Shown in pieces: positions 3,085 through 16,160 of a DNA stretch of 20,325 nucleotides. How positions within the stretch are numbered: position 1 is the first letter of the stretch; each line of letters begins with the position of its first letter. Both the position numbers and the translations under genes were made by a program. A model generated the notes under the pieces. It was not told where the DNA came from, did not search any database, and saw nothing but the letters and a program-made list of their open reading frames with translations. This DNA is from an uncultured Nitrososphaera sp. (lineage in GTDB: Archaea > Thermoproteota > Nitrososphaeria > Nitrososphaerales > Nitrososphaeraceae): positions 1 to 20,325 of the forward strand of contig NZ_CAMLDP010000028.1 of NCBI RefSeq assembly GCF_946478925.1. Reading direction: 5' to 3'.

Positions 3085-3230
3085 TTTACGAGTGCAAATC
3101 GCACTCCACGCGCATTACTTCTTTTATACACACGCGTGTGCGCGTTTCCAGTGGACTACAAATACAAGCGTAGTTGTAGCAGTTTTTAGTTCTTTTATTG
3201 TAGGCTTGTCAAACAGCTTCCGACACATAG

Positions 3231-3269
3231 GCAAAAAGAAGAAAAGGAGAAGATGATGAGGGCATCATC
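3231..3269 (-). terminator. hairpin plus T-rich tract, terminator for the 3332-4117 gene
   Basis: GATGATG at 3252-3258 pairs with CATCATC at 3263-3269 around the loop AGGG. On the minus strand the hairpin is followed by a pyrimidine tract (TTCTCCTTTTCTTCTTTTT) about 60-100 bp past the stop codon, which suits termination of the minus-strand gene. It also lies between two convergent genes. Confidence 0.45.
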
Positions 3270-3331
3270 ATCATCCTTTGAATCTACGGCATGTTAGTTG
3301 GTGAAGAAGCCCTCATTATTTCTAGCTCGGA

Positions 3332-4117
3332 CTAGGGACGCGGAAACGTCACGATGCTGTGCCCATCCTTATCTCTCAACATGTTTACAGTCCCATAGAT
3401 GGACTGCCCTACAAAATGATTTGAGGTATCCTTTGGATCTAGCATGATGGTTATTGTGCTGAGTTTGTCTATTATTATGACTGTCTTGACGTTCGTCCAC
3501 GTGATGGCGTGGTTAAGGGCTACATCGACGGTTCCTGCTATCGTGGTGGTCCCGTTGGCGTTCAGTTGAATTGACGTGTTATTGCTTGCAGGATGAAAGT
3601 TGCTGATCTCGTGTACATGGCGATTGCTGGCGTCAAGATGAACCTTTGTGAACTTTACGTCAAGGAGCGTTATATTCCCATTTTCAGCTTTTAGATGCCA
3701 TGCCCCGCTAAGGATAAAGGTTTTTGGAGGCACGACGGACGCATTCATAGTGGCAGTTGAATTCATTGACGACGATGACGATGGCGACATCATGTTGCTG
3801 CCGGTCGTGTTTGAAGGTGCCATTGATGAAGTCATGTTGTTGATATTTCCTGCCTGATTATCCGCAGAAGATGCAGGGAGGATCAAACCTGCAATATAAC
3901 CCGCGGCTGAAAACGTGCCAAGCCCCGTCGCGTTTACAGGGCCAGTCGCTAAAACCGACGAGTTAGAGTTGGTCATCATTGATGATGAAGTCATGTTGTT
4001 TGATTCTGTCGCATTCTGTGCCAGAATTTGCTTGGGGGCCAGAACTCCCATCAACGAGAGTGCCGTTCCAAGTACTATGCTAACCATCATCAGGGTTGCA
4101 ATGGTTTTTGTTAACAT
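3332..4117 (-). CDS. secreted Ser/Asn/Met-rich protein of unknown function
   Basis: This 261-residue exported protein has a signal peptide, with Lys at position 4, a hydrophobic stretch to about residue 30 and probable cleavage near ILAQ-NATE. Residues 35-130 are low-complexity and rich in Ser, Asn, Met and Thr, with many N-x-S/T sites that archaeal N-glycosylation could use. Residues from about 135 to the end form a compact-looking beta-rich domain: SGAWHLKAENGN, DVKFTKVHLD, HVHEISNF with closely spaced His, then strands to the C-terminus. I recognise this style from small exported thaumarchaeal proteins, but no function is known to me. The segment NNMTSS occurs twice and is encoded by a 17-bp direct repeat, suggesting internal duplication. 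It is divergent from the ChrB_C/MFS operon; a TATA-like TATTTTTATT lies at about 4170-4180. Confidence 0.7.
   Translation of the reverse strand: MLTKTIATLMMVSIVLGTALSLMGVLAPKQILAQNATESNNMTSSSMMTNSNSSVLATGPVNATGLGTFSAAGYIAGLILPASSADNQAGNINNMTSSMAPSNTTGSNMMSPSSSSSMNSTATMNASVVPPKTFILSGAWHLKAENGNITLLDVKFTKVHLDASNRHVHEISNFHPASNNTSIQLNANGTTTIAGTVDVALNHAITWTNVKTVIIIDKLSTITIMLDPKDTSNHFVGQSIYGTVNMLRDKDGHSIVTFPRP
3825..4000. repeat. 17-bp direct repeat inside the secreted-protein gene
   Basis: GATGAAGTCATGTTGTT occurs at 3825-3841 and again at 3984-4000, in the low-complexity part of the gene. Both copies encode the NNMTSS segment on the minus strand. Confidence 0.8.
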
Positions 4118-4227
4118 TGGTTCGGTTATCCTGCCAGCGTGTTTAACCCTTACTCAACCATGGTACAGAGAATAAAAATAGTCTACGAGCCATTACTATT
4201 GTTGTTCAAAATGGGAGATCAAGAGAG

Positions 4228-4665
4228 ATGAAGTGGATCACAAGAGAGCACGCAAAAGTGGACAGGATTGCCTGTCCCTGGCTGATAAAGAATTTTGTGG
4301 ACAAGGATGCAGAATTTCTTTTTGTTCCAGCTGACAAAGTCGTTCAGACTGCCAGAGAAGCAAACGCGACGCCCTTTGACGTGCCTAACGTAGAACTGGG
4401 ACATCATGGAGAAGAGTGCTCATTTGACGCCATAGTGAAAAAGTATGCTCTTTATGAAAAAGAGCCTGCGCTGGTAGAATTGTCTAAAATTGTCCGGGGT
4501 GCAGATACTCCCAACAGGACGTTGACGCCGCAGTCAGAAGGACTGGTTGCAATAGCCACGGGATTCAGCATGAATTCAAAAGATGATCATGACAACATGG
4601 CCAAGCAGTTCCACGTTTACGATGCCCTTCTGACATTCTGCAAAAGCCACGCGGGCAGAGCATAG
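4228..4665 (+). CDS. ChrB C-terminal-domain protein (Chrome_Resist family)
   Basis: This 145-residue protein matches the C-terminal domain of bacterial ChrB, found in chromate-resistance loci. The hallmark is DRIACPWLIKNFVD at residues 12-25, followed by AEFLFVPADKV. Other candidate ligands or active residues are HHGEEC at 59-64, DTPNRT at 93-98 and HVYDALLTFC at 129-138. The N-terminal half of full ChrB is absent, so this is a stand-alone domain. A purine-rich GGGAGATCAAGAGAG lies just before the ATG and may act as ribosome binding site; a TATA-like AATAAAAAT is at 4171-4179. The MFS transporter follows 22 bp after the stop in the same direction, so the two probably form an operon. A role in metal or oxyanion stress is inference from the family name; the biochemical activity of the domain is not established to my knowledge. 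Confidence 0.75.
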   Translation: MKWITREHAKVDRIACPWLIKNFVDKDAEFLFVPADKVVQTAREANATPFDVPNVELGHHGEECSFDAIVKKYALYEKEPALVELSKIVRGADTPNRTLTPQSEGLVAIATGFSMNSKDDHDNMAKQFHVYDALLTFCKSHAGRA

Positions 4666-4687: not shown

Positions 4688-5929
4688 ATGCTGGAATGGC
4701 TCTCTAGGGACGGCAAGCTCGTACTAGCGGCCAGGATGATAAGGACATTTGCGTACGGCTTTCTTTCAATCGTGCTTGCCATATACCTCAAGACAATAGG
4801 GTTTGACAATGTCCTCATAGGATTAGTCCTGGCTGCGACGCTAGTCAACAGCGTCATATTTACTCTGGTGGCAAGTTTTTACGCAAACAGGATTGGCAGG
4901 CGCAACACCCTCGTTATTTATGCGGCGTTGATGTCGGTAGCCGGGCTGGTATTCGTCGTAACTGACAACCATGCCGCGTTGATTGGCGCTGCCCTTGTGG
5001 GAACAATCAACGTGACGGGATCGGAGACAGGCGCTTTTCTCTCGATAGAGCAGGCACTGCTTCCCCAGACTGTACGCGACCAAAAGAGGCGCACCCTGGC
5101 ATTTGCGCTTTACAACATGGCCGGAACCTTGGCCATGTCGGCAGGTGTACTCTTGTCAGGCTTGCCATCTATTTTTCAGCAGCAACAACAAGGCTTGAAT
5201 CAAATCGAATCCATAAAGCCCCTTTTTCTCTTGTACAGCCTTCTTGGCATTGTAGTGCTTGCCATCTATATGTCACTTTCAAAGAAAGTTGAATCGATGG
5301 CAAACGAGTCCCTGGCAGCCAAAAAACAAATGCCATTATCGCCCGCATCAAAGAAAATTGTCGGCAAATTGTCCGGACTGTTTGCAGTAGACGCATTTGC
5401 CGGCGGCTTTGTAATTCAAAGCATCGTATCTTTCTGGTTCTATACCAAATTCGGCGCTGATTTGGCCGCTCTGTCATTAATTTTTTCAGCTGCCGGGGCG
5501 TTGACGGCGCTTTCCTTTCTAGCTGCAGCAAAAATCGCAGACAGGATCGGGCTCATAAATACGATGGTCTTTACCCACATACCGTCCAACGTATTTCTGA
5601 TACTTGTAGGATTTGCTCCTTCGCTGCCTCTGGCAATTGCATTTTACCTGACGAGAATGGCTCTGTCACAGATGGACGTTCCCACAAGGCAATCCTATAT
5701 CGTCTCTGTTGTAGCCGAAGAAGAAAGGACGCCTGCGGCTGGAATTACCAACATATCCAGGAATATTTCTCAGGCAGTATCGCCATCCTTGACTGGCTAC
5801 ATCCTGCAGGCTTTGCCTGCACTAGCCGCTCCTTTTGTCTTTGGCGGGGCGCTAAAGATCGCGTATGACATAGCCTTGTACCTTAATTTCAGAAACATCA
5901 AACCATCTGAAGGAAAAAAGTCTGGATAG
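4688..5929 (+). CDS. major facilitator superfamily transporter
   Basis: This 413-residue integral membrane protein has about twelve hydrophobic segments in two halves joined by a charged loop near residues 200-225 (SKKVESMANESLAAKKQ), the classical MFS layout. In the first half FYANRIGRRNTLVIYAAL at the end of the second helix matches the MFS signature G-x-x-x-D/R-R-x-G-R-R; in the second half AAKIADRIGLINTMVF is the equivalent. RMALSQMDVPTRQSYIVSVVAEEERTPAAG resembles the drug or metabolite efflux branch. A TTG three bases upstream (4685) is possible, but the ATG at 4688 is preferred. It follows the ChrB_C gene by 22 bp, replacing the ChrA transporter that ChrB normally accompanies. Substrate unknown; export of a toxic anion or metal complex is a guess from context. 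Confidence 0.85.
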   Translation: MLEWLSRDGKLVLAARMIRTFAYGFLSIVLAIYLKTIGFDNVLIGLVLAATLVNSVIFTLVASFYANRIGRRNTLVIYAALMSVAGLVFVVTDNHAALIGAALVGTINVTGSETGAFLSIEQALLPQTVRDQKRRTLAFALYNMAGTLAMSAGVLLSGLPSIFQQQQQGLNQIESIKPLFLLYSLLGIVVLAIYMSLSKKVESMANESLAAKKQMPLSPASKKIVGKLSGLFAVDAFAGGFVIQSIVSFWFYTKFGADLAALSLIFSAAGALTALSFLAAAKIADRIGLINTMVFTHIPSNVFLILVGFAPSLPLAIAFYLTRMALSQMDVPTRQSYIVSVVAEEERTPAAGITNISRNISQAVSPSLTGYILQALPALAAPFVFGGALKIAYDIALYLNFRNIKPSEGKKSG

Positions 5930-7657: not shown

Positions 7658-7807
7658 TCAACCTTGTTCCGGCACAAGGTGGAACATGGCGTGGCCGAGG
7701 AGCTTTTCGTGCACGTGCGCGTCCTCGTCTGACAGGAACACGGTGCTGCAGCGTTCGCAGTAAAACAGCCTGTCGTCGTGAACCAGTGTTCCGGAACCCT
7801 GTTCCAT
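7658..7807 (-). CDS. 49-residue C2H2-type zinc-finger protein
   Basis: A very small protein starting MEQGSGTLVHDDRLFYCERC. It carries one C2H2-like finger: Cys17 and Cys20, an aromatic/hydrophobic core (VFLSDEDAHVHEKLLGH) and His33/His39 (His31 alternative). Single C2H2 fingers of this form occur in many archaea and can bind nucleic acid or protein. The start at 7807 was chosen because TATA-like ATTTATAG (minus strand, 7836-7843) is centred about 32 bp upstream, giving a leader of around 5 nt; longer in-frame starts lie upstream of this promoter or inside the polymerase gene. It is downstream of and co-directional with the DUF72-polymerase gene, 76 bp away, but has its own promoter. Confidence 0.65.
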   Translation of the reverse strand: MEQGSGTLVHDDRLFYCERCSTVFLSDEDAHVHEKLLGHAMFHLVPEQG

Positions 7808-7883: not shown

Positions 7884-9725
7884 TCACCCTTGTCCTCCTT
7901 CAACAAAATCGAGGAGCGTCCGTTGCGCCTCATGCTTCCCGGGGTGGCTCAGGTTGGTCACGCGCAGGCCGACCTTTCTGACCGGCGCGCCAAGGTCGAA
8001 CCTGTCGACCAGCTGCGGTATTGCGGCAAGTATGCTCTCGCGCCTCTGCTGCGGGCCCTGGTACGACATCTCCCTCGTCTCGATTGAAAAATCGGCCCTC
8101 ACTATCTTGGCACCCACCGTGCGGAACAGGTAGCCGTGCCCTGCCACCCTGGCGTACAGCTCGTCAGAAAGAGCGGTCAGCTCTGCAAGGACTTCCTTTC
8201 TGTCCTTTGCGTACACCTCTAGGCTGTGCTCAGTGCTTATCGAGACGTGGTCCTCCCTTGGGACTACCGGCTCGCTTTCTGCGCCCGTCGCCACCTGCCA
8301 CATCCACAGCCCGTTCCTGCCAAATCGCGACGTGAGCTTTTGCACGTCGCAGGCCGCAAGCTGGCCTATCGTGGAAATGCCGATCTTTTTCAGCTCCTGC
8401 TGGGTCTTGGGGCCGATGCCAGAGATCCTACCTACCTCAAGGGGCGCAAGAAAGTCCTGCAGCCTGTCAGGGTAGGCCACGGTGACTCCATCCGGCTTTT
8501 TGAAATCCGACGCTATCTTGGCTGCCGACTTGGACGGCGCCACCCCTATCGAGACCGACAGGCCGCACCCCTCTTTTACCGCCCTCTTGACCGCCGACGC
8601 GTACTCGTGGGGACTTGCGTCGCCGACTCTACCGGTGCAGTCGAGAAATGCCTCGTCTATACTTGCCTGCTCTATCACGTCTGCAAACCCTGAAAGGACT
8701 TGCATCACCTTCTCAGACACCTGCTTGTAGTACGCAATGTCGACGGGCCGAAGCTCCATGTCGGGGCACAGAGCAAGCGCCCTTGCAAGGGGCATGGCCG
8801 ACCTGACGCCGAACCGGCGCGCCTCGTACGAGCAGGACGACACCACGCCCCGCGTTATCTTGCCGACGGGCTGGTCCGTCATTATCACGGCGTGCGGCCT
8901 GCCCCTGAGGGCTTGCTCGCGCAGCTCCTCGCAGGAGGGGTAGAACGCGTTGAGGTCGACGCAGAGGACCATCCTGCTGTTGCCCGGCCACCTCGGCGCA
9001 GGCACGGGCAGGGCAGGCGCAGGCATGGGGCCCGAGTACTTGCGCTCTGGCAGGCCGAGGTGTACAAGCGCGGCGTTTGCGCCTCCCGGGCTGTCTGCAA
9101 TTATTATAGACATGTCGATCTGGCTGTCCTGCCCTGCTTCTCTGAGGGCCTTTTCAAGCTCGGCCTTCCAGTTGCCGCCGTCGCCTGCCAGCCTGAGGAA
9201 AATGAAATCCGACGTGATGGCTGCCTGCGCGCTCTTGCCGCCGCTCCTCCAGTACAGGGCCGCGCCGTGCTTTCTCAGGATGTTGTAAGCGGTATCCTGA
9301 AACCACGAGGGGTGGGAAAAGTCCAGAATTGCCGAGTAGCCGTGGTAAGTGCACGTGGCAAGCACCCTCTCAAGCCAGCGCTGCCCGTCGGACAGCGCGA
9401 GCCCCTGCGGCGCCCTGACTACAACTGCAAGCGTCTTTTCCTCTATCGGCCTGAAGGCTTCAAGCAGGTTCCCTAGCGCGCCGTCCTCTTCTGCTACTGC
9501 TGTTGTTGTCGTGGCCTGCTCTGGTATCCTGACAACAAAGCGAAAGCCTTCCGGCGTCTCATGCGCCCACCTCCAGAACGAGTGCTCGTAGGTGGCCGGC
9601 ACGCCCACCTCGACTGCGTCAAACACCCGGGAATAGTGGGAAAGGTAGTCCTTTGGCGCAAGGGCTTGAGGATAAAAGTTACCAAACCTCCATCCCGCGC
9701 ACCCGACGAAATGCCGCAAGTGCAC
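7884..9725 (-). CDS. DUF72 domain fused to a Y-family DNA polymerase (Dpo4/DinB type)
   Basis: 613 residues in two recognisable parts. Residues 1-230 are a DUF72 (YecE-like) domain: VGCAGWRFGNFYPQAL near the N-terminus, VEVGVPATYEHSFWRW, FVVRIPEQ, ILDFSHPSW at 133-141 and FIFLRL at 174-179, the order seen in stand-alone family members. A Pro/Ala-rich linker (234-248) joins it to a full Y-family polymerase from M252: catalytic Asp257 (VDLNAF), steric-gate-position Tyr262, SSCSYEARRFGVRSAM, catalytic Asp357/Glu358 in SIDEAFLD, SIGVAPSKSAAKIAS, the helix-hairpin-helix ISGIGPKTQQELKKIGI, and a little-finger domain. The C-terminus QRTLLDFV resembles a PCNA-binding motif. Such polymerases copy past damaged bases. 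The role of DUF72 is not established; the fusion suggests a DNA or nucleotide substrate linked to lesion bypass. GTG start, with a TATA element at 9744-9750. Confidence 0.9.
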   Translation of the reverse strand: MHLRHFVGCAGWRFGNFYPQALAPKDYLSHYSRVFDAVEVGVPATYEHSFWRWAHETPEGFRFVVRIPEQATTTTAVAEEDGALGNLLEAFRPIEEKTLAVVVRAPQGLALSDGQRWLERVLATCTYHGYSAILDFSHPSWFQDTAYNILRKHGAALYWRSGGKSAQAAITSDFIFLRLAGDGGNWKAELEKALREAGQDSQIDMSIIIADSPGGANAALVHLGLPERKYSGPMPAPALPVPAPRWPGNSRMVLCVDLNAFYPSCEELREQALRGRPHAVIMTDQPVGKITRGVVSSCSYEARRFGVRSAMPLARALALCPDMELRPVDIAYYKQVSEKVMQVLSGFADVIEQASIDEAFLDCTGRVGDASPHEYASAVKRAVKEGCGLSVSIGVAPSKSAAKIASDFKKPDGVTVAYPDRLQDFLAPLEVGRISGIGPKTQQELKKIGISTIGQLAACDVQKLTSRFGRNGLWMWQVATGAESEPVVPREDHVSISTEHSLEVYAKDRKEVLAELTALSDELYARVAGHGYLFRTVGAKIVRADFSIETREMSYQGPQQRRESILAAIPQLVDRFDLGAPVRKVGLRVTNLSHPGKHEAQRTLLDFVEGGQG

Positions 9726-9790
9726 AAGAGCTTGTCCCGGCCCTTATAATGTGACGTATACCTCCGGGAGAGGGAGAGAGGGTATATGTC

Positions 9791-9943
9791 TCAGGCCGCG
9801 TCTATGCCAGCCTTTCTGGCGTACTCTATCACGGGGTGGCATGAATAGCAGTAATTGCACCGGATGCACAAGTAGGCCGTGCGCTTGCCGCACCACTTGC
9901 ACTCGCTGTACTGTGGCTTTAGCGGTGAGAGGTACTCGTGCAT
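9791..9943 (-). CDS. 50-residue cysteine-rich zinc protein
   Basis: An intact minus-strand frame from ATG 9943 to TGA 9791-9793 begins MHEYLSPLKPQYSECKWCGK. It holds six cysteines at 15, 18, 26, 29, 32 and 35 plus His36 (C-x2-C, then C-x2-C-x2-C-x2-CH), enough for one or two zinc sites. It ends VIEYARKAGIDAA. The cysteine spacing and charge pattern are too regular for chance, and the protein is the only sensible reading of the gap between the polymerase and cyclophilin genes. It lies 65 bp upstream of the DUF72-polymerase gene in the same direction. Function unknown; possibly a zinc-ribbon adaptor. Confidence 0.65.
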   Translation of the reverse strand: MHEYLSPLKPQYSECKWCGKRTAYLCIRCNYCYSCHPVIEYARKAGIDAA

Positions 9944-13802: not shown

Positions 13803-16160
13803 ATGACGGTAGAGAGGTTCAGAGAACAGAAAATGGCACGTTACTCGATGTACGGGATGGCTGGGATTGGGATTGCCGCCGCTATCGGCTTTGTGCTAGT
13901 GCTGGGGTCTATAGGGAGCAGCATTATCACCCGGGGGTCCAGCCCGGCGGCCTTTACGGGCGGAAACGGCACTGCCGGCGCTCCTGCCGCCCTTGTAACG
14001 GCGTCCACCCAGAACCTTGCAAAGTTCTCCTCGATTGACGAGCTGCGGGCGTTTCTGACAAACGTCGAGGCCAGCCGCAACGCGTTTTCGACCGCCCAGA
14101 CCGGGATACCGTTTGGGTCTGCCCCTGGCGGTATTGCCTCTTATGGCCCTGCTGGAGGAGCAGCCGTTACAAGGGACGGCTCTACATCGCAGCAGCAAAT
14201 GCTTCCGCCGGCGCCGCTCTCGTCAAACGCTGAAAAAAGCACCCCTGCCGACAATGCGCAAACCGGCAGTCCGTCGTTCTCTGGCACAAACAACCAGGTG
14301 GCCGGAGTCGACGAGCCCGACTTTGTCAAAAACGACGGCAGGTATGCGTACGTCTTGTCCGGCGACAAACTCACAATATCCTCTGTCTATCCGCCAGAGA
14401 ACGCCACAATAGTAGCCAAGGTCGGCCTTGACATCAAGAGCGGTAGCCAGTACCTGCAAGAGATGTTCCTGAACAACGACACGCTTGTCGTGTTCTATAC
14501 AGAGTACGCGCAGGACTATGTCATCCCGCAGTACGAGTTTGCGCCGCAGCCCGTGTACGCACCAAAGACTCACGCCCTCCTGCTGGATATCACTGACAGG
14601 GCAAACCCCAAGACGGTCCACGACTATGTGGTGAGCGGCACGTACCACGACGCAAGGATGATAGGCGACCGCGTGTATCTCGTCACGACAAGCGACCTGT
14701 ACAGCTACCGCCAGCCGCTGGTGCCAAAGGTGGTAGAGTCGTCAAGGACGGTCGTAGAGCCTGATATCTATTACTTCAGGAACCCAGAGCCGTACTACAA
14801 CTTTAACACCGTGACTTCGATAGGTCTAGCGAGCAAGGACGACAACCTGAATTCAAAGACGTTCATGATGAACCCTGCCTCGACCCTGTACGTGTCGCAG
14901 GATAGCATCTACATCGCCTACCAGAAATACCTGCCGTACAACTATTACGAGCAGTCAAGCCGCGACAGGTTCTTTGCAGCGGTGGTTCCGCTCCTGCCGC
15001 AGGACGCGCAGGACAAGGTAAAGGCCGTGGACGCAGATGCGTCGATACCTTCATCCGACAAGTGGGACAGGATAGCGACAATCCTGCAGGACACGTACAA
15101 TGGCATGAGCGAGTCTGCCAAGTCGCAGCTGTTTGAAAAAATCCAGAAATCGCTTGCCGACTATGACTTGCAGGCGCAGAGGGACGCGACGAGAACTGTC
15201 ATACACAGGATAGCAATCGGGCCAAACGGCGAGATTGACTACAAGGCGAGAGGTGAGGTCCCAGGCAGGCTCTTGAACCAGTTCTCGATGGACGAGAGCG
15301 GCAACAGATTCAGGGTCGCGACCACTGTCGAATACTACTCGCCGTACGCGCAGGGCCTCTATAGCAATGTGTACGTGCTCGACAGGGAAGACATGCAGAC
15401 CGTGGGCAAGCTGGAGCAGATACAGCCTGGCGAGGCGATGTACTCGACCCGCTTTATCGGCGACAGGCTGTACCTCGTGACGTTCCAGAGAGTGGACCCG
15501 TTCTTTGTGATAGACCTTTCCCAGGACACGCCGGAGGTGCTCGGTGAGCTGAAACTGCCCGGCTACTCTACGTACCTGCACCCGTACGACGAGACTCACA
15601 TAATCGGCATCGGCAAGGACACCAAGGACAACGGCTACGGCGGAGTCGTGCCGACCGGGGTAAAGCTGGCACTCTTTGACGTGTCAGACGTAAAGAACCC
15701 AAGATTGGTCAACGACTATACGATACCGGGGCAGGACACCGACTCGGAAGTGCTGCAGAACCACAAGGTGCTCTTGTTCAGCAAAGAGAATCCAAACGTG
15801 CTTTCGATTCCTGTGACAAAGTACGACGCGGAAGATGCCAAGTACGCGCCTGACGGGCGCTACCTTCCTCCAAAGGTGTGGCGCGGGTTCTACGTCTTTG
15901 GCGTGAGCGCCGACGGTGGAATCGCGCTAAAGGGTACGGTGGAGCACTCTAACAACGCGACCGACTATTATTATCCCTACTACGGGATACAGGGAAGCAG
16001 CAGGTCGTTCTACATTGGAAATGTGCTGTACACCGTGTCGGCAGGCAACCTCATCAAGATGAGCGACATCAATACGCTCAAGGACCTCGGGCAGCTGCAG
16101 ATAGGAAGCACGGGCGACGTGATAAAGTACCCAGTGCCCCTCGACGCGCCGCCAAAATAA
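13803..16160 (+). CDS. membrane-anchored secreted beta-propeller-domain protein
   Basis: 785 residues. A short cytosolic N-terminus is followed by a membrane helix at about 17-43 (MAGIGIAAAIGFVLVLGSI), a Ser/Ala/Gly/Pro-rich linker to about 160, and a large extracellular domain opening TNNQVAGVDEPDFVKNDGRY, the hallmark of archaeal and bacterial secreted proteins with a C-terminal beta-propeller distantly related to WD40 repeats. Propeller blades appear as repeated strand patterns such as GDRVYLVTTSDLYSY, GDRLYLVTFQRVDPF and GNVLYTVSAGNLIKM. Between blades is a helical, charged insertion (about 395-460). In-frame ATG codons at 13803 and 13833 are both possible; a weak TATA (GATTAAT, about 13776) favours 13803. 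Possibly a cell-surface interaction or scaffold protein; no enzyme motif seen. It is divergent from the SIMPL gene. Confidence 0.85.
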   Translation: MTVERFREQKMARYSMYGMAGIGIAAAIGFVLVLGSIGSSIITRGSSPAAFTGGNGTAGAPAALVTASTQNLAKFSSIDELRAFLTNVEASRNAFSTAQTGIPFGSAPGGIASYGPAGGAAVTRDGSTSQQQMLPPAPLSSNAEKSTPADNAQTGSPSFSGTNNQVAGVDEPDFVKNDGRYAYVLSGDKLTISSVYPPENATIVAKVGLDIKSGSQYLQEMFLNNDTLVVFYTEYAQDYVIPQYEFAPQPVYAPKTHALLLDITDRANPKTVHDYVVSGTYHDARMIGDRVYLVTTSDLYSYRQPLVPKVVESSRTVVEPDIYYFRNPEPYYNFNTVTSIGLASKDDNLNSKTFMMNPASTLYVSQDSIYIAYQKYLPYNYYEQSSRDRFFAAVVPLLPQDAQDKVKAVDADASIPSSDKWDRIATILQDTYNGMSESAKSQLFEKIQKSLADYDLQAQRDATRTVIHRIAIGPNGEIDYKARGEVPGRLLNQFSMDESGNRFRVATTVEYYSPYAQGLYSNVYVLDREDMQTVGKLEQIQPGEAMYSTRFIGDRLYLVTFQRVDPFFVIDLSQDTPEVLGELKLPGYSTYLHPYDETHIIGIGKDTKDNGYGGVVPTGVKLALFDVSDVKNPRLVNDYTIPGQDTDSEVLQNHKVLLFSKENPNVLSIPVTKYDAEDAKYAPDGRYLPPKVWRGFYVFGVSADGGIALKGTVEHSNNATDYYYPYYGIQGSSRSFYIGNVLYTVSAGNLIKMSDINTLKDLGQLQIGSTGDVIKYPVPLDAPPK

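Follow-up and report, generated by a model that had tools for sequence, protein, structure and literature searches.

What does a DUF72 domain do when it is built into a DNA polymerase? The question is raised by a gene in the 20,325-nucleotide contig NZ_CAMLDP010000028.1 of an uncultured Nitrososphaera sp. (RefSeq assembly GCF_946478925.1; this whole stretch is called the window below), in which a single reading frame on the minus strand joins an N-terminal DUF72 barrel to a Y-family polymerase. DUF72 is without an assigned function according to PMC11791011, and a first-pass annotation of this DNA had taken the fusion as a hint that the domain acts on lesions or nucleotides. We find that the fused barrel retains its fold while most of the residues that mark the site of free-standing DUF72 proteins are gone. 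From sequence and predicted structure we consider it fairly probable that the gene encodes a clamp-associated translesion polymerase with a non-catalytic, accessory DUF72 barrel at its N-terminus.

A complete DUF72 barrel joined to a DinB-type polymerase

The gene is organised as follows.

7884..9719, minus strand: fused DUF72-DinB gene, likely start TTG 9719, 611 residues; the frame from GTG 9725 (7884..9725) has 613 residues
9048..9716, minus strand: DUF72 domain, residues 4-226, an eight-stranded TIM barrel with a degenerate site
8976..9029, minus strand: flexible Pro/Ala-rich linker, residues 233-250, with conserved Trp246 (predicted local distance difference test score, pLDDT, <50 at 233-240)
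7935..8975, minus strand: Y-family (DinB-type) polymerase, residues 251-597, with catalytic D257, D357 and E358 (Pfam IMS/IMS_HHH/IMS_C)
7905..7925, minus strand: C-terminal clamp motif QRTLLDF, residues 601-607, resembling a PCNA-interacting peptide (PIP), in a tail predicted to be disordered (pLDDT <50 at 598-601 and 603-613)

As the first-pass annotation had proposed, one frame carries a complete DUF72 domain, a linker and a complete Y-family polymerase, which Pfam matches, fold and conservation all bear out. The N-terminal part matches Pfam DUF72 (PF01904) with 85.7 bits against a cut-off of 25.3, over positions 1-164 of the 217 in the profile, and has the complete TIM-barrel fold of 1vpq/1vpy. 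In the full-length model both parts are well formed (pLDDT 86; predicted template modelling score, pTM, 0.54) and the linker is disordered; its Trp246 is present in 93% of 28 fused copies.

The polymerase part is a DinB-type Y-family DNA polymerase, with a predicted role in lesion bypass. IMS, IMS_HHH and IMS_C all lie above their Pfam cut-offs, NCBIfam DNA polymerase IV models match residues 248-608 (one of them, PRK02406, above its cut-off), and the solved chains closest by sequence are DNA polymerase IV. The catalytic residues named in the first pass, Asp257, Asp357 and Glu358, are invariant across 53 fused homologues. Some polymerases of the family, both fused and unfused (L046-L052, L031-L035), are longer by tens of residues behind the catalytic Asp/Glu, around window residues 367-375. 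Fusion-bearing genomes also encode a second, divergent Y-family polymerase (about 34-37% identity; L113, L114, L115), which is without DUF72 and has a C-terminal clamp-like motif.

The fused barrel keeps its fold and has lost most of its site

DUF72 domains were scored at nine polar positions that are kept in nearly all free-standing DUF72 proteins (the site) and at ten scaffold positions. The fused copies keep a mean of 2.8 of the 9 site residues (range 0-5, n=28; 2 of 9 in the window) and 9.7 of the 10 scaffold residues. The corresponding site score is 9.0 of 9 for the DUF72 proteins encoded in separate DUF72-polymerase gene pairs (n=39 of 41, two cut copies being excluded) and 8.6-9.0 of 9 for the other groups of free DUF72. 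A Tyr at position 48 and a His at position 79 are present in 0/28 fused copies and an Arg at position 145 in 1/28, and E42 and E143 vary too, in an alignment that is uncertain around a short deletion at Tyr47-Tyr48. Four residues are newly fixed in the fused DUF72 only: E89, G114, W117 and Q143.

The residues of this site are those for which a role in DNA/phosphate binding has been proposed in another DUF72 protein (Konc 2013, PMC3828134). A likeness to Endonuclease IV or UVDE has been stated for other DUF72 proteins, in PMC3828134 and PMC11791011; neither enzyme is among the fold matches listed for the fused domain, a negative that excludes nothing. The ratio of nonsynonymous to synonymous substitution rates (dN/dS) of the DUF72 part is 0.14-0.25 in seven pairs, which share genomes and in two of which dS is >1, and in these pairs both parts of the protein are under purifying selection.

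In spite of the intact fold and the purifying selection, the earlier functional inference needs correcting: the residues of the site are largely gone from the 28 fused copies, and an action of the fused domain itself on lesions or nucleotides is not supported. The conserved core of the domain, on which the first-pass annotation had staked that suggestion, is thus half there, its scaffold kept and its site lost. By sequence, the fused domain is homologous to DUF72 and falls outside the members that have the family's usual site. It is best read as a pseudoenzyme, probably a module through which a clamp-bound bypass polymerase docks, touches DNA or dimerises.

The fusion recurs within one archaeal family

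A protein search returned 2948 homologues at E 1e-10 among 7998 candidates scored. Both DUF72 and IMS are carried by 118 of the best 120 of these, the window's own protein included, and wherever a name is given it is DNA polymerase IV; the ratio is no frequency, since ranking and length limits favour fused proteins. Among 70 genomes of one archaeal family the fusion was read in 26, in one of which (G254) it is cut at a contig end, and in six (G141, G145, G118, G109, G079, G102) it lies on contigs of 2.5-3.4 Mb. This recurrence, with six instances on multi-megabase contigs, rules out an assembly artefact. The fusion is real and conserved.

Fused-type DUF72 also stands at contig ends in G203 and, by match identity only, in G366. 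One unfused polymerase gene, L010, starts with a piece that resembles the end of DUF72 plus the linker. At locus L036 a decayed fusion is seen as a DUF72 fragment and a shortened polymerase (5107-5304 and 3218-4300) with stops between them. Free DUF72 genes are present as well in several of the fusion-carrying genomes, and DUF72 in general was found in 253/400 genomes sampled from the class and in 9/14 control genomes, including E. coli.

Separate DUF72 and polymerase genes stand side by side in related archaea

We next considered unfused genes, using an order-wide polymerase list from 400 genomes, in which at most three candidates were scored per genome, and compared it with the flanking DNA. 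The census took in every polymerase match that reached 235 bits in a genome other than those 70 of the family, 46 in all. A same-strand DUF72 gene lies within 300 bp upstream in 35 of the 46, so that the neighbourhood of unfused DUF72 and polymerases which the first pass had proposed to look for does occur in related archaea. The 11 without an upstream DUF72 belong to G007, G329, G353 (twice), G262, G121, G412, G208, G358 and one locus each of G350 and G371, the last two of which each have another locus with a DUF72-polymerase pair. Six further pairs below 235 bits, fetched on hints from earlier lists, bring the total to 41, and polymerases without a DUF72 neighbour were also fetched below that score (L105, L106, L107, L111, L112, L153 and the paralogues L113-L115). 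The intergenic gap is 0-25 bp in 37/41 pairs, most commonly 7 bp (18/41); the four outlying gaps depend at least partly on the start codon chosen by the script.

The gene pair is lineage-bound. The close relatives of one gene-pair DUF72 that carry a name, which are few, are uncultured Nitrososphaerota, Nitrososphaerales or Thaumarchaeota. Since DUF72 is linked to the Y-family polymerase both by fusion and by gene pair, the two are tied, and the part of the first-pass annotation that connected DUF72 with lesion bypass emerges strengthened by the conserved fusion, the purifying selection and the gene pairs.

A clamp-like motif that may favour one partner

The last 25 residues of each protein were searched for Q..[LIM]..[FYW] (the strict motif) or a short form of it; counts exclude 11-12 of 12 duplicate loci and L037, which is cut at a contig end, and count as a miss the free DUF72 of L040, which the end of the fetched DNA truncates. 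The window's QRTLLDF, after which only a short tail follows, is a PCNA-binding-like motif, with binding predicted. The strict motif stands near the C-terminus of 26/26 fused proteins, and of 114 of the 115 fused database homologues of at least 540 residues. In the gene pairs it is the DUF72 protein that has a motif (35/41, 18 of them with the strict one; shuffles give the short form a mean of 4) and seldom the polymerase (2/41), whereas polymerases without a DUF72 partner have it in 29/36 cases (16/17 in the fused clade, 13/19 outside).

Free DUF72 proteins carry the motif in 5/8 cases in clade II and 6/33 in clade I; 17 of 20 further clade II DUF72 genes of the order have it, 14 in strict form, mostly KQKTLGxF, as do 3 of the 23 DUF72 frames in the phylum sample. 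A set of 120 database relatives of a gene-pair DUF72 shows the short form in 101 (shuffled mean 15) and the strict form in 0. Such shuffles overstate significance, because the sequences are related. These counts are no more than suggestive of a preference of the clamp-like motif for one partner, in gene pairs usually DUF72 and not the polymerase.

The 20 further genes of the order mentioned above, L177-L196, are free DUF72 genes of other members; most end in a canonical-looking KQKTLGxF motif (the 17 that match by the loose pattern), and no polymerase lies in the stretch fetched around them.

One gain of the fusion as the simplest reading of the trees

Trees were built without 12 duplicate locus ids, polymerase domains <250 residues and DUF72 domains <150 residues; a second DUF72 tree also left out four long-branch or cut rows of free DUF72. 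L038, which is truncated by a contig end and falls within the fused clade, was counted as fused in the DUF72 tree and in the site and fixed-residue counts. All 28 fused DUF72 rows form one clade (28/28; Shimodaira-Hasegawa-like approximate likelihood ratio test, SH-aLRT, 100), and the polymerase tree, a quick one with SH-aLRT support only, scatters unfused among fused sequences. One gain of the fusion followed by several losses would be the simplest reading, although change counts alone cannot separate gain from loss. In the larger DUF72 tree the fused clade lies nearer to free DUF72 of the order, mostly PIP-bearing, than to the gene-pair copies, a placement that is unsure because of its long stem. 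If the two kinds of pairing arose independently, the functional link between DUF72 and polymerase would be stronger still.

Gene start, promoter and neighbouring genes

One further feature lies upstream of the gene.

9744..9749, minus strand: TATA-box-like TTATAA, read from the sequence, at the same position in two close relatives (G141, G145)

These two relatives have CTG at the position of the window's GTG and keep TTG at that of its TTG, so TTG 9719 is more likely to be the start codon than GTG 9725. Between TTATAA and TTG 9719 there are 24 bases, a spacing that would fit a leaderless archaeal transcript. Nothing clear was seen of an internal start for a free polymerase in the junction sequence, the only part inspected.

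When 21 loci were compared with the window, five close relatives (G001, G009, G118, G141, G145) kept flanking genes, and the other 16 had none of the window's genes besides DUF72/polymerase. Just upstream of the fusion (9791-9943, minus strand) is a 50-residue Cys-rich gene, zinc-ribbon-like by eye, which occurs near the fusion in the same five relatives and was not found in the 16 other loci. A 49-residue gene with a C2H2-like pattern, again by eye, lies just downstream (7658-7807, minus strand) and is downstream of the fusion in the same five genomes, about 1 kb off in G118. Farther away, a 785-residue Beta_propel (PF09826) protein (13803-16160, plus strand) is in order with its neighbours in three close relatives (L001, L011, L055).

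Proposed explanation and alternatives

How might such a barrel serve a polymerase? We propose that a free-standing, PIP-bearing DUF72 works with the polymerase at PCNA on damaged or stalled templates, and that in one family both were joined into a single chain, after which the barrel lost its own chemistry. The barrel would have been retained to dock the polymerase to DNA, to a partner protein or to another copy, probably through the residues fixed only in the fused form, which lie on helices 3-4 and in the loop that follows helix 4. By way of the C-terminal motif, PCNA would bring the fusion protein to a stalled primer end, where the polymerase part would bypass the lesion and the barrel, tethered by the disordered linker, would dock. 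Sequence and prediction give the anatomy; the docking role we infer.

Several observations weigh against this explanation. Thirteen of the 70 family genomes keep a same-subfamily polymerase without fused DUF72 and one (G335) has a decayed copy, so the barrel is dispensable in those genomes; the label "polymerase only" is unreliable for L012 and L013, which begin at contig ends, a more distant separate DUF72 gene is possible at L026, L027, L030 and L032, which have <750 bases upstream, G367 and G401 are fragments that are not placeable, and the remaining family genomes are without a close match. In 6/7 pairs the DUF72 part matches or exceeds the polymerase in its rate of evolution, the full-length model (pTM 0.54) has no interface between the domains, and what is called the "site" comes from a prediction (Konc 2013, PMC3828134) together with conservation. 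Among the matches listed for 398 genomes across the phylum, only G105 shows adjacent separate genes, and in G712 and G733 the two genes are about 10 kb apart. The trees neither establish a single origin of the pairing nor reject it (approximately unbiased test, p-AU 0.119 for the polymerase and 0.374 for DUF72).

The clamp motif brings reservations of its own. The commonest ending of gene-pair DUF72, QQTLFG, falls short of the full PIP consensus (0/120 strict), an LxxW-like ending is kept by 34/41 gene-pair polymerases, and the motif is also absent from partnerless polymerases near or inside the pair clade (L091, L098, L100, L101, L108, L111). In the fused linker it occurs in 0/26, which is the chance expectation (shuffled mean <1). 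The contrast between partners is mostly one clade-level change, with 2-3 independent pairs and a sign test p of 1, and it is this, together with the LxxW endings, that makes it no more than suggestive. For a statistical coupling of motif and gene pair on the tree there are too few independent changes.

A bolder form of the proposal, which we put forward tentatively and by analogy, is that PIP-bearing archaeal DUF72 forms one part of a two-part Y-family mutasome, as the subunit dedicated to binding PCNA. It would hold the clamp instead of the polymerase in the gene-pair lineages, and in the Nitrososphaera family it would have been fused, with the clamp motif at the polymerase end and the barrel as a catalytically dead regulatory domain, like the iRadA proposed for PolB2. 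On this view DUF72 would assist bypass in general, as an accessory to polymerases of two families.

The view of the first-pass annotation, in a form that we regard as rather unlikely, would have the fused DUF72 still act as an enzyme, through altered chemistry or at a different site, and cut, trim or clean up lesions or damaged nucleotides ahead of the polymerase. The complete fold and purifying selection are in keeping with it, as are the DNA binding predicted for another DUF72 protein (PMC3828134) and the DUF72 genes near polB2 in PMC11791011. However, 0/28 fused copies keep more than 5 of the 9 site residues, the Tyr, His and Arg discussed above are gone from all or all but one of them and E42/E143 vary (with the alignment uncertain at the short deletion), and several of the fusion-bearing genomes retain free DUF72 genes too.

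That the barrel is a dimerisation module, pairing two polymerases or the fusion with a free, active DUF72, seems unlikely to us. It would account for a scaffold kept while the site was lost and for the residues newly fixed on helices 3-4, and Tm1631 has a conserved flat patch that is a homodimer interface according to PISA (Konc 2013, PMC3828134).

Quite improbable is a role for DUF72 in a different process, such as sugar or nucleotide metabolism, with the pairing reflecting shared expression only, since the fusion, the gene pair and the clamp-like motifs on the partner DUF72 point to DNA. A neutral passenger or artefact, that is, a decaying relic in the reading frame, could explain the absence of DUF72 from 13 family genomes, the relic-like N-terminus of L010 and the decayed copy in L036, but is very improbable given a dN/dS of 0.14-0.25 in the seven pairs and a fusion that recurs in 26 genomes, six times on long single contigs.

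The fusion and recurrent gene pair with a bypass polymerase give DUF72, a widespread domain, a direct and testable place in damage tolerance, beside its reported enrichment near polB2. The intact free barrel and the decayed fused one form a natural contrast by which an enzymatic and a docking role can be told apart.

Comparison with known systems

The families are known; what is new is their combination and the type of partner that the Y-family polymerase has in DUF72. We found no description of a DUF72-Y-polymerase fusion or gene pair among the matches listed from the open literature searched, subscription papers and preprints being outside its scope, so a prior description is possible; the accessible part of the genome paper PMC4084955 makes no mention of DUF72.

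With the archaeal DinB/Dpo4-type Y-family polymerases the protein shares IMS, HHH and IMS_C, the catalytic Asp/Asp/Glu and a C-terminal clamp-like motif, and it differs from them by its N-terminal DUF72 barrel. Standard Dpo4 begins at the palm, and alignments to solved Dpo4 chains start near residue 2 of those chains. In E. coli Pol V (UmuD'2C), too, a Y-family polymerase is controlled by a partner of its own whose gene lies immediately upstream; this partner, UmuD, is however unrelated to DUF72. From the DUF72/YecE family (PF01904; 1vpq Tm1631, 1vpy/1ztv EF0366), whose fold and scaffold residues it shares and whose profile it matches above the Pfam cut-off, the fused copy is set apart by the loss of most site residues, the short deletion at Tyr47-Tyr48 and its junction with a polymerase.

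A further parallel is the PolB2-iRadA-PPB2 mutasome, described computationally by Timinskas et al. 2025 (PMC11791011). There, as is proposed here, the accessory of the polymerase is an enzyme homologue without activity; the clamp motif tends to one partner and is rarely on both, and DUF72 genes are enriched near polB2. That system has a B-family polymerase and a RadA-like partner encoded by separate genes, whereas here a Y-family polymerase is combined with a DUF72 barrel in a complex suggested by fusion and gene pair. If our reading is right, the barrel would be one more case of a polymerase accessory that is an inactivated enzyme.
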